Source: Phycisphaerae bacterium
Lineage (GTDB): Bacteria > Planctomycetota > Phycisphaerae > UBA1845
Assembly (NCBI GenBank): GCA_029260165.1
Contig: JAJDDT010000080.1
Coordinates: 1 to 41,758, forward strand
DNA length: 41,758 bases
Reading direction: 5' to 3'
This document shows positions 27,360-31,505 of the stretch, in pieces. The notes below the pieces were generated by a model, which searched no databases, was not told the DNA's origin, and saw nothing but the letters and a program-made list of their open reading frames with translations. The translations under genes and the position numbers were made by a program. How positions within the stretch are numbered: the stretch's first letter is position 1; every line of letters starts with the position of its first letter.

Positions 27360-29126
27360 GTGACGGACGGTTTGATGCATCCTCAGCGCCTGGGTGGCCC
27401 ACCGCAGCATGGGTGGCCCACCTCTTTAGAGGTGGGGGATTCGATTACCGGTTTGGATTCGACTCCCCCAGGGCTAAAGCCATGGGCCACGCAACCATCA
27501 AACGACAGGCATCGAAGCGGTAGGTTCCTGCGTACGCTAGGTGTGTTGGGATTGGCTGTGTTGACGGTTGCGATGGCGGTCGTGGTGGTGGCTGAGCCGC
27601 CGGCGTATTCGGGTGATTCGGAGAAACTGATCGCGCCGTTGCCGCTCGAGAAACCGTCGGTTCCTGACGCGTCGGGCAGGTTAAACAACGAGATCGACCA
27701 ATTCATCGCGAACCGCTGGTCGGATCGTGGGGTTCGGTCGGCGCCGTTGTGCGATGATCTGACGTTCGTTCGGCGGGTTTACCTCGATATCGCGGGCGTT
27801 ATTCCGAACATCAGGCAGGTCAACGCGTTCAAGGGCGAGGGTTACAACAGGCGGTCGAAGCTGATCGACGAACTGCTGGGGTCGGATCGTTATGCGGATC
27901 ACTGGTCGACATTCTGGGGTGATCTACTTCGCGAGCGTACACGGATTCGAGGGGCGGATCCGTTCGCGTTTCGCGACTACATCCGCGATGCGCTTGCGAA
28001 AAACAGGCCATACGACCAATGGGTTCGCGAGATGGTGGCAGCGGAGGGCACGCCGATCGACAACCTTGCTGCTGCGTTTGTTCTCACGAATGGTGACGAT
28101 CGCGACGAGTTGACGATCTCGACGACGCAGGTGTTCATGGGTGTGCAGCTCAAGTGTGCACAGTGTCATGACCATCCTTTTGAAGCATGGAAACAGAGCG
28201 ATTACGAAGGCATGCGGGCGTTTTTCGATGGCACGCGTCGCCGGATTGCGGTCGATGAGGAGGTTGAGCGCAACGGTCGAAAGGTGCGGCGGCGGATTTT
28301 TGAAGTGATCGATCGCGATCGCGGGACGGGCCGATTTGTGACGGAGGCGACGTCCGGGAAGGGTCGCGGGCGTCAGGGGTTGGCTGATCTGTTGACCGAT
28401 CGATGGAATCCGTATTTCGCGCGGACGGCGGTCAATCGGTTGTGGGCGAAGCTGTTCGGCGCGGGACTGGTCTCGCCTCCGGACGGTTTCAGCCCGATGA
28501 ATCCGCCTTCGCATCCGGATCTGCTCGATTGGCTGGCGGTTGAATTTGTCGAAAACGGATACGACCTCAAGAGCATGATTCGACTGATGTGCAACGCGCG
28601 GACGTATCAGTTGGCCAGTCATGGTGGACGTCGCCCCGGGGAGATTCCCGACCACGAGCGGCTGTTCGAGAAGATGTCGCTGCGACGAATGACGGCGGAG
28701 CAGTTGCACGATTCGCTGTTGGTGACCACGGGATTGATCGGTTCAAACCGCCGCGCGCTGCAGCCTGCCATCGAACAAAACCACCCGCCGCGCCCCGGTT
28801 CATTCCTGGCTACTTTCGGCGCTCACGACCGTCGAACAATTCACGAACGCAGTACGGACGCCACCATTCCGCAGGCGTTGACGTTGCTCAATGGCCCGTT
28901 CATCAACCGTGCGGTTCGTATGCACGAGCGTCACCCGACCAGGTTGTGGCTTGATATGGGTGTGTCGCGTCAGGAGACGATGAATGCGTTGTTTCTGAAC
29001 ACGCTGACCCGCGAGCCGACCGGTCAGGAGCGCAAGTTCGCCCTCGAAATCGCCCAGAACGCCGAAGGCTGGTCCGACGTGCATTGGGCGCTGATCAACA
29101 CGCCCGAGTTCATGTTCATTCGATAG
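27360..29126 (+). CDS. DUF1549/DUF1553 domain protein with element-derived N-terminus
   Basis: 588 aa from a GTG at 27360, which has AAGGAG about 10 nt upstream; the ATG at 27375 is the alternative. Residues ~4-48 are encoded by the palindromic element at 27370-27503 (the SLEVGDSITGLDSTPP part). The old signal peptide follows (GRFLRTLGVLGLAVLTVAMA, 54-73). Residues ~108-310 are DUF1549, including a CAQCH haem-like motif (C266, C269, H270), and ~370-585 are DUF1553 (WNPYFARTAVNRLWA, EQLHDSLL). These planctomycete proteins are often paired with DUF1501 proteins, which I do not see here. A periplasmic role linked to c-type haem is suggested. It converges on cysE with a 25-bp gap. Confidence 0.88.
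   Translation: MTDGLMHPQRLGGPPQHGWPTSLEVGDSITGLDSTPPGLKPWATQPSNDRHRSGRFLRTLGVLGLAVLTVAMAVVVVAEPPAYSGDSEKLIAPLPLEKPSVPDASGRLNNEIDQFIANRWSDRGVRSAPLCDDLTFVRRVYLDIAGVIPNIRQVNAFKGEGYNRRSKLIDELLGSDRYADHWSTFWGDLLRERTRIRGADPFAFRDYIRDALAKNRPYDQWVREMVAAEGTPIDNLAAAFVLTNGDDRDELTISTTQVFMGVQLKCAQCHDHPFEAWKQSDYEGMRAFFDGTRRRIAVDEEVERNGRKVRRRIFEVIDRDRGTGRFVTEATSGKGRGRQGLADLLTDRWNPYFARTAVNRLWAKLFGAGLVSPPDGFSPMNPPSHPDLLDWLAVEFVENGYDLKSMIRLMCNARTYQLASHGGRRPGEIPDHERLFEKMSLRRMTAEQLHDSLLVTTGLIGSNRRALQPAIEQNHPPRPGSFLATFGAHDRRTIHERSTDATIPQALTLLNGPFINRAVRMHERHPTRLWLDMGVSRQETMNALFLNTLTREPTGQERKFALEIAQNAEGWSDVHWALINTPEFMFIR
27370..27503 (+). mobile_element. MITE-like palindromic element, copy A
   Basis: It begins GTTTGATG (27370-27377) and ends CATCAAAC (27496-27503), 8-bp inverted ends. 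The interior holds the palindrome CCCACCTCT-tt-AGAGGTGGG and a GGGTGGCCCACC unit. Copy B at 30929-31081 is in the opposite orientation and highly similar over the core around GGTTTGGATTCGACTCCCCC. No transposase is encoded, so movement in trans is inferred. The element is read through in frame by the DUF1549 gene. Confidence 0.75.
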
Positions 29127-30130: not shown

Positions 30131-30865
30131 TCAACCTGCCTTGATCCCGTCCGCCGTCCACGTCATCGATTCACCCGCTTTGGGTACCACAAGCCGATCC
30201 TTCAGCGACGCATCCAGTTCCGCTCGAAATGCATCGGGTGTGCCATGCAGCATCGGAAACGTGCCATAGTGCATCGGAATGATCGAATTCGGATTCAGGA
30301 ATTTCGCCGCCAACGCTGCACCCTTCGGACCCATCGTGAAATGGTCCCCGATCGGCAACACCGCCACCTTCGGTGCGAACAACTGTGCGATCAACTGCAT
30401 GTCGCTGAAAACGTCCGTATCGCCCGCGTGATAGCACGACGCGACGCCGTCGGCTGAGACGATCATCCCGCAGGGCATCCCCGTGTAGAACGGTCCGTTG
30501 ACCGACGCGATGCTCGACGAATGGTAGGCCCGCGTTAACGTGAACGAGACGTCGTCGATTGTTTGTGTTCCGCCAATGTTCATCGGCGCGAATTTACCAT
30601 TCGGCGACCCCTGACCCAACACGTCGCACAACTCAATGATGCCCACGACATGCGGATCAAACTTCTCGATCAGGTCAGCCACGTCCTCGGCATGGTCAAA
30701 ATGCCCGTGGGTCAGCGCGATAAAATCGCAACGCGAAACGTTTTTGCATGAATCGGGACAACCGGGATTGTTGGCCAGCCACGGGTCTATCATGACAACG
30801 CGCTCGTCGGGCAGCGTCAGTTGACACGTCGCATGTCCAAGAAAGGTGAATATTCCGTCAGCCAT
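30131..30865 (-). CDS. MBL-fold metal-dependent hydrolase (UPF0173-like)
   Basis: 244 aa from the ATG at 30865 (MADGIF), which has GGAGCG 8 nt upstream; an ATG five codons earlier lacks one. Metallo-beta-lactamase fold residues: THGHFDH (H53, H55, D57, H58), YHAGDTDVF and IPMHYGTFP for the remaining ligands. The length fits the UPF0173/UlaG-like hydrolases, which have a varied substrate range. Only one base separates it from cysE, so it is probably co-transcribed with it. The substrate cannot be named. No signal peptide is present. Confidence 0.85.
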   Translation of the reverse strand: MADGIFTFLGHATCQLTLPDERVVMIDPWLANNPGCPDSCKNVSRCDFIALTHGHFDHAEDVADLIEKFDPHVVGIIELCDVLGQGSPNGKFAPMNIGGTQTIDDVSFTLTRAYHSSSIASVNGPFYTGMPCGMIVSADGVASCYHAGDTDVFSDMQLIAQLFAPKVAVLPIGDHFTMGPKGAALAAKFLNPNSIIPMHYGTFPMLHGTPDAFRAELDASLKDRLVVPKAGESMTWTADGIKAG

Positions 30866-30928
30866 TGTTTGTCGCTCCATCTGAGAATTTGCACGTCATT
30901 GCGAGTGCCTACTGTGTCGTTACTCGTC

Positions 30929-31081
30929 GTTTGATGGTTGGGTGGCCCATGGCTTTAGCCTTGGGGGAGTCGAATCCAAACCAGAAATCGAGTCCCCCAC
31001 CTCTAAAGAGGTGGGCCACCCGCACGAAGGTGGACCACCCGTGCGGAGGTACGCCACCCCTGTGTTGATGATGTATCAAAC
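30929..31081 (-). mobile_element. MITE-like palindromic element, copy B
   Basis: Inverted relative to copy A. It runs from GTTTGATG (30929-30936) to ATCAAAC near 31081 and contains CCCACCTCT-aa-AGAGGTGGG. It is 19 bp longer than copy A because of an extra GGTGGACCACCC-like palindrome. It sits between the MBL gene and the selenoprotein gene, mostly in intergenic sequence. Together the two copies bracket about 3.4 kb containing the DUF1549 gene, cysE and the MBL gene. Confidence 0.75.
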
Positions 31082-31097
31082 CATCTGTCATGATGCA

Positions 31098-31325
31098 TTA
31101 ACTGGACCTGGCTGCGATGAGGTCGAGGATTTCCTGGTGTTCGGGAAATCGACCGACGTCTTTCTTGCAGAAAATCAGCTCGTCGTTGAGCCTGACGTCG
31201 AAGATGCCGCCGCCGCTCTCGATCATCTCGGGATCGATACCATGCTCCTTCTTGATCGCTGCCGCCAAACTGGAGGCTGTCGGAAAGTAATTTCACTGCA
31301 TGCAGTACTTGATGGACATTTTCAC
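31098..31325 (-). CDS. SelW/Rdx-like selenoprotein with in-frame TGA (Sec)
   Basis: 75 residues if the TGA at 31295-31293 is read as selenocysteine. I start at the GTG at 31325 because GGAGA lies 7 nt upstream; the ATG at 31319 is the alternative. Near the N-terminus stands IKYCMQUNYFPTA, a CxxU redox motif after a first beta strand, as in the SelT/SelW/SelH (Rdx) thioredoxin-like family. The remaining frame stays open to a TAA with family-like features: SGGGIFDVRLNDELIF, then CKKDVGRFPEHQEIL. Cys homologues in bacteria have CxxC at this place. A redox role with glutathione-like partners is assumed. A bSECIS-like hairpin follows the TGA. Without Sec insertion only 10 residues would be made. 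Confidence 0.8.
31261..31277 (-). promoter_or_regulatory. bSECIS-like hairpin for Sec insertion
   Basis: On the minus strand GCC-u-CC-AGUUU-GG-c-GGC starts 15 nt after the UGA. The stem has five G-C pairs and one mismatch. The loop is AGUUU, with a G in its first two positions, 21 nt from the UGA. These distances fit the bacterial SECIS pattern (loop roughly 16-37 nt downstream with an exposed G). Confidence 0.65.
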
Positions 31326-31505
31326 GGGAGATTCTCCATTTCGTTTCCCATCGAGGTCGCGACCGATGTCACTCCAACCGGATGACGCGTTATTCGGACG
31401 CGTCGACATCTTGATCTTACTACGGAATCGGCGATTGTTGCCACCGTCGATGGATTTTTCTGCAATAATGGCGTCGTGGGGACGTTTTTCCCATCAGAGC
31501 AGGAT

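Follow-up and report, generated by a model that had tools for sequence, protein, structure and literature searches.

Bacterial SelW-like selenoproteins carrying a CxxU motif have been described since 2005-2006 (PMC1242214, PMC1794560) and are covered in reviews (PMC9312934, PMC13188914). Very few or no Cys homologues were reported for them in Sec-using organisms (PMC1794560), and SelW-like genes were named among those missed in epsilonproteobacterial annotation (PMC4607533). The SelW of C. jejuni was confirmed at full length by Ribo-seq and proteomics (PMC11955535). For planctomycetes, one study described selenoprotein genes in two isolates and reported that G. obscuriglobus and I. pallida, too, have full sets of Sec-insertion genes; its main text contains neither 'SelW' nor 'Rdx' (PMC4807772). 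Judged by titles and abstract openings, none of the open-access papers that literature searches returned on planctomycete or Phycisphaerae selenoproteins deals with SelW in this group.

We analysed a stretch of DNA of 41,758 nucleotides, referred to as the window, from a bacterium of the Phycisphaerae, a class of Planctomycetota. An initial annotation of the letters had pointed to a SelW/Rdx-type selenoprotein gene on the minus strand. We found that this gene is a well-supported further case of the established bacterial SelW-like selenoproteins: it is almost certainly a SelW-like gene of the Rdx family in which codon 11, a UGA, specifies Sec. The gene, its family, the conserved TGA, the hairpin constraint at family level, the Sec machinery, the coding constraint and the predicted fold were all computed, and beyond them we infer Sec insertion, catalysis and a substrate.

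Reading frame, family and surroundings of the gene

Re-translation of the minus strand from 31325 to 31098 with TGA taken as U gave 75 residues followed by TAA (VKMSIKYCMQUNYFPTASSLAAAIKKEHGIDPEMIESGGGIFDVRLNDELIFCKKDVGRFPEHQEILDLIAARSS), in agreement with the frame through the TGA and the CMQU motif that had been read initially. With the initial GTG taken as Met the product starts MKMSIKYCMQUNYFP, and this GTG aligned to the ATG of the nearest relative, which belongs to the same genus. The features are collected in Table 1.

Table 1. Coordinates of the selenoprotein gene, its elements and its downstream neighbour in the window
Feature	Position	Strand	Basis
SelW/Rdx-type selenoprotein gene, 75 aa, GTG start, TAA stop (31100-31098)	31098..31325	-	profile matches, conserved TGA
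In-frame TGA, predicted Sec-11, second redox position of CxxU	31293..31295	-	one TGA in 84/84 matches; Cys three codons before U in 110/110 U loci
GGAG, possible ribosome binding site, 8 nt upstream of GTG start	31334..31337	-	read from sequence; inference
Bacterial SECIS-like hairpin GCCUCC-AGUUU-GGCGGC, 15 nt after TGA, one U.C mismatch	31261..31277	-	near-frozen synonymous sites, covariation; own fold imperfect
Apical loop AGUUU (GGUCU in same-genus relative)	31267..31271	-	sequence
Downstream neighbour, metallo-beta-lactamase-fold metal-dependent hydrolase (NF001911/PRK00685)	30131..30880	-	profile match

An open frame across a TGA proves nothing alone, because such frames are common: 346 read-through frames of at least 60 codons across one TGA were counted in the window. 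It is the family match together with the conserved TGA and the synonymous constraint that puts this gene beyond chance, unlike a bare frame. At the same site the ORF list contained an in-frame ORF of 56 aa with a TTG start (31268-31098) and an out-of-frame ORF of 97 aa (31296-31003), and ORFs of 147 aa and 57 aa ran over it on the plus strand; a gene caller might therefore give a truncated or wrong gene. The description of the gene as invisible to gene calling was thus only approximate, in that the site may be prone to wrong or truncated calls but the in-frame 56-aa ORF does appear in the list.

With the TGA taken as a residue, the protein scored 58.1 bits against the Pfam Rdx profile PF10262, whose curated cut-off is 22.6, so that an Rdx (SelW/SelT/SelH) assignment first made by recognition of the pattern was borne out; an Rdx profile search of the genome gave the match through the TGA at 49.8 bits. 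TIGR02174 scored 52.4-52.5 bits against a cut-off of 34.2, and NF041051, the Campylobacter-type SelTWH equivalog, scored 83.2-83.3 bits; because this is under the cut-off of 88 bits, the protein is classed only as a relative of that equivalog. In an AlphaFold2 model built from five sequences (mean pLDDT 91.2), C8-M-Q-U11 sits between strand E3-8 and helix H14-28, which gives the CxxC/CxxU motif after the first strand and the thioredoxin-like alpha/beta fold that mark Rdx proteins. The best Foldseek matches of the model were the bacterial SelW-type structures 2fa8, 3dex, 2ojl and 2obk; the 22 matches at E <=0.001 consisted of bacterial SelW-type chains and 2ljk, and mouse SelW, 2npb, came next. 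A sequence search of the PDB to E 0.01 returned 2ljk, 3dex, 2fa8 and 2ojl, the best being 2ljk (1.6e-9), which has CxxC. These results support a SelW/Rdx-family protein with a thioredoxin-like fold. The product would be a small protein of this fold, its Cys-x-x-Sec redox pair placed after the first strand and before the first helix, and most likely a putative thiol/selenol oxidoreductase that would act on a partner through a reversible selenenylsulfide.

The neighbourhood was surveyed as ORFs of at least 100 aa within 2.5 kb at 110 loci, many of which end early at contig or fetch ends, with profiles run on the neighbours in the window. An ORF related to the hydrolase lay downstream on the same strand at 13 of these loci, the window included. 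A redox partner explaining the function was sought among the neighbours of the 110 loci and none was found. At 20 of the 110 loci (for example L118), the Rdx gene is directly preceded on its own strand by an ORF that, judged by eye, resembles the transcription terminator Rho.

Just downstream of the gene in the window there is also an imperfect palindromic repeat of about 80-100 bases, at 30925-31021 on the minus strand and again at 27392-27506 on the plus strand. The genome search gave at least 62 matches to it, of which at least 41 were strong (scores from 82 bits upwards, own copy counted) and at least 21 were weaker and fell on the opposite strand of strong-match places, all of these being lower bounds from 40 scored candidates out of 101. 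As a single strand, 30930-31040 has a much stronger fold than its shuffles (z -4.66), and the repeat looks like a dispersed REP/MITE-type element.

Selenocysteine machinery, conservation of the TGA and competing readings

The host genome (4.43 Mb in 119 contigs, estimated to be 100% complete and 1.71% contaminated) was searched for selA, selB, selC (tRNA-Sec) and selD, and all four are present; a lack of selB and selC would have spoken against the initial annotation. selB (315.4 bits, or 361.3 with the neighbouring stretch) adjoins selA (541.6 bits) on contig C5; selD (367.8 bits) lies on contig C10, and tRNA-Sec with a TCA anticodon on contig C64, at 68.1 bits against a gathering score of 47. 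The selD gene (G000:C10:9728-10648, L011) carries an in-frame TGA of its own within an SCAGU motif, followed by a predicted GGTC-containing hairpin; from its sequence it is likely to be a selenoprotein gene itself.

SelD produces selenophosphate, Ser-tRNA-Sec is turned into Sec-tRNA-Sec by SelA, and SelB delivers the latter to the ribosome. In the mechanism that we propose for this gene, the host's SelD would supply the selenophosphate and its SelA the Sec-tRNA-Sec, which SelB would carry to the ribosome while gripping the mRNA hairpin just downstream of the UGA. Codon 11 would be read as Sec because SelB both brings the tRNA and holds the hairpin.

Conservation was examined in 100 genomes, consisting of the host and 99 relatives. 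We found 84 Rdx matches in 79 of them (host included), every one with exactly one TGA. A total of 114 loci were read out, namely these 84, the window included, and 30 from the best 31 listed phylum matches, a non-random choice; L001, a duplicate of the window, was excluded. The residue at the site is U in 110 loci and Cys in four (L054-L057), and a Cys codon stands three codons upstream of the U in all 110 U loci. The Cys homologues that the initial annotation had expected to align across the TGA therefore exist, L057 being among them in the alignment, and the locus shows what characterizes bacterial selenoprotein genes, a UGA within the frame whose position is conserved and for which there are homologues with Cys.

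Further afield, 143 of 392 genomes in a phylum sample had Rdx, and among the matches listed 11 had no stop and the others one TGA. When genomes were scanned with the single protein, four of 123 candidate stretches proved to be relatives, all four with U and the same kind of hairpin; their hosts are a Phycisphaerae MAG, a Planctomycetota MAG, a Calditrichota MAG, which belongs to another phylum, and 'bacterium SM23_31'. Viral contigs searched with the single protein yielded no relative. Either selA or selB exceeded its cut-off in 74 of the 79 Rdx-bearing genomes, and neither did so in five (G005, G017, G022, G045 and G062, completeness 63-83%). The presence of selA in 70/79 genomes with Rdx versus 13/21 without (p = 0.008, kinship ignored) is supportive but weak, because most Rdx-less genomes also retain selA. 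In family f5 (for example G067, G070, G073, G079 and G085), all 13 sampled genomes were without an Rdx match, yet five of the 13 carry selA and selB over cut-off. With Rdx in 79 of the 100 genomes sampled around the host, the data suggest that it is usual for members of a large and little explored group of Planctomycetota to have a SelW in the Sec form, encoded by genes that are easily missed.

After the TGA, pS exceeded pN in all 71 comparisons with the window (means 0.589 and 0.274; 0.59 and 0.13 for the same-genus relative), so the excess of synonymous change predicted for this part of the frame was indeed found. Protein-level selection of this kind bears on whether the locus could be a decayed gene or a sequencing error, that is, a Cys-type Rdx gene in which TGC or TGT had become TGA by a point change. 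Cys forms do occur in the family, at four of 114 loci, and a single base change does make a TGA, but this reading is refuted by the conservation of one TGA in 84/84 matches from 79 genomes; in the loci that were read out, this TGA falls at the U of CxxU. The selection on the frame after the TGA and the Sec machinery in the genome also speak against it, and we regard it as so improbable that it can be discounted.

It is very unlikely, too, that a changed genetic code, or a suppressor tRNA causing read-through in general, makes the TGA stand for an ordinary amino acid. Such a reading would agree with the open frame on both sides of the TGA, but TGA serves here as a normal stop, since it terminates three of the eight long ORFs checked in the window, two of the three having family matches (the hydrolase and an acetyltransferase-like gene). 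Against it stand also the place of the TGA exactly at the redox Cys position, the presence of selA, selB, selD and tRNA-Sec, and a hairpin under synonymous constraint. The real product could in principle be short, either a 10-residue peptide or the 56-aa frame from the TTG at 31268, with the full-length reading unused; that frame is in the mechanical ORF list, and at low selenium termination at the UGA is expected. We consider this highly improbable: the seven codons that precede the TGA and encode strand 1 with the first Cys show protein-level conservation in the alignment, with pS > pN in 59 of 71 comparisons over these seven codons only. The full-length selenoprotein is favoured over a short product because the constraint on the hairpin makes sense only if the UGA is recoded.

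The hairpin downstream of the UGA and its loop

The hairpin with its AGUUU loop lies 15 nt after the TGA, as the initial annotation had stated, but its claimed fit to bacterial SECIS geometry was upheld only in part. Published rules give a loop of 3-9 nt with G in the first two positions, an upper stem of 4-16 bp, a UGA-to-loop distance of 16-37 nt and an MFE <= -7.5 (PMC13188914). The loop and the 21-nt UGA-to-loop distance of the window fit these rules, whereas the five pairs are split by a mismatch: three pairs are followed by the U.C mismatch and two further pairs (three counting the loop A-U), with no run of four in the arms. The folding energy is modest and borderline against -7.5, at -7.7 kcal/mol for 24 nt and -6.2 kcal/mol for the bare 17 nt. 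A synonymous-recoding energy test gave no clear signal, with a mean z of -0.57 after the TGA versus -0.44 and -0.35 in control stretches; the z of the window itself was +0.15, and four Cys-form controls gave no signal either (-0.48, -0.04, 0.71 and -0.13). An Rfam search of 30900-31400 returned nothing near a gathering score.

Across the family, the layout that begins 15 nt after the UGA comprises an arm of 6 nt, a loop of 5 nt and an arm of 6 nt. Of the six pairs, four or more are standard in 107/110 sequences, and a run of at least four pairs occurs in 96/110. The free 54-nt fold showed at least three of the five core pairs in 91/110, the window included; the outermost arm pair forms in 46/110 only, and a U.C or A.C mismatch at the place of the window's mismatch was seen in 10/110. 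The alifold energy was -1.9 over all 110 sequences and -9.1 over the 84 from the relatives search.

Codon use was tested in the 72 of the 84 sequences that have an xF[DEN][VIA] motif at equal distance from the TGA, with pairwise averages taken from the first 60 of the 72. The results revealed that the hairpin codons are near-frozen in these 72 gap-free sequences. Numbered from the TGA, +6 Ala is GCC in 68/72, +7 Ala GCC in 59/59, +8 Ser AGT in 53/53, +9 Leu only TTG (43) or CTG (29), and +10 Ala GCG in 67/71, where the expected same-codon rates for +6 to +10 are 0.29-0.42. Most codons outside the hairpin were near expectation, the exceptions being +42 Ser, +46 Thr (0.63 vs 0.36) and +28 Gly (0.60 vs 0.40). 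Codon +42, which corresponds to Cys-53 of the window, is AGC in 53 of 55 gap-free Ser sequences (0.93 vs an expected 0.29), a bias that may go back to an ancestral Cys codon, TGC, still present in the window.

Covariation was counted in the 105 distinct sequences of the 110, except where 110 is given, against shuffle controls that ignore kinship. Stem pair 20-32 formed in 101/105 (shuffle mean 80.8, max 89), as C-G, G-C, G-U, U-A, A-U or U-G; pair 21-31 formed in 95/105 (mean 87.7, max 92) and pair 22-30 in 105/105 (mean 99.8, max 103). Pairs 18-34, 19-33 and 23-29 were not above shuffles in the 105 sequences, because they vary hardly at all or on one side only.

The least ordinary part of the finding is the covariation within the loop, which is mostly AGUUU or GGUCU; the synonymous Leu codon there follows the base that lies three positions upstream. 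In the 110 sequences, loop bases 1 and 4 (positions 24 and 27) are A-U in 48, G-C in 45, A-C in 15, A-A in 2 and G-U in none. On a rough tree built without the hairpin, position 24 changes 13 times and position 27 changes 17 times. Among 36 disjoint nearest pairs, base 4 differs in 8/11 where base 1 differs versus 5/25 where base 1 does not (p = 0.006); one of the pairs with both loop bases changed is that of the window and its same-genus relative. The fifth loop base, position 28, is U in every sequence, so although 24-28 pairs in 105/105, position 28 is unable to covary, whereas 27 does. The published bacterial SECIS consensus pairs N1 with N2 across the loop (PMC13188914).

Our tentative proposal, which we hold to be possible rather than probable, is that in this planctomycete order, where SelW was found only as the Sec form (84/84 matches, 100 genomes), SelB reads the SECIS loop of SelW as a G-U step that is kept in place by a base 1-4 pair able to swap between A-U and G-C, with the fifth base an invariant U, and that the synonymous Leu codon is accordingly selected to match the preceding Ser/Gly codon. 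If true, the swappable 1-4 pair would define the loop more finely than the bacterial consensus published so far. The many natural hairpins are material for testing how SelB reads the loop.

Comparison with known SelW-type systems

The closest described systems are the bacterial SelW-like proteins (PF10262) such as C. jejuni SelW (NF041051) and that of Geobacter sulfurreducens. They belong to the same family as the present gene, have CxxU, are often unannotated and have few or no Cys homologues in organisms that use Sec; C. jejuni SelW is of similar length (80-81 aa vs 75 here), and epsilonproteobacterial selenoprotein genes likewise have a 5/6-bp hairpin a few nt past the TGA (PMC4607533, PMC1794560, PMC11955535, PMC1242214, PMC9312934). 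Unlike the Campylobacter and Geobacter genes, the one described here has a Planctomycetota, Phycisphaerae-like host, and its product, at 83 bits, falls short of the 88 bits set as cut-off for NF041051. The loops read here, those of the planctomycete loci, are mostly AGUUU or GGUCU, with bases 1 and 4 covarying.

The structural-genomics SelW-related bacterial proteins 2fa8, 3dex, 2ojl and 2obk have the same predicted fold (TMq 0.79-0.92) at 20-31% identity. In the alignment 3dex has CxxC at the site where CxxU stands here, and we take 2fa8, 2ojl and 2obk to carry Cys there too. Mammalian SelW (2npb) and MIEN1/C17orf37 (2ljk) have the Rdx fold in common with the product, the fold match to SelW being weaker (TMq 0.63). 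In eukaryotes the SECIS is located in the 3' UTR, unlike the hairpin of the present gene, which lies in the coding sequence.
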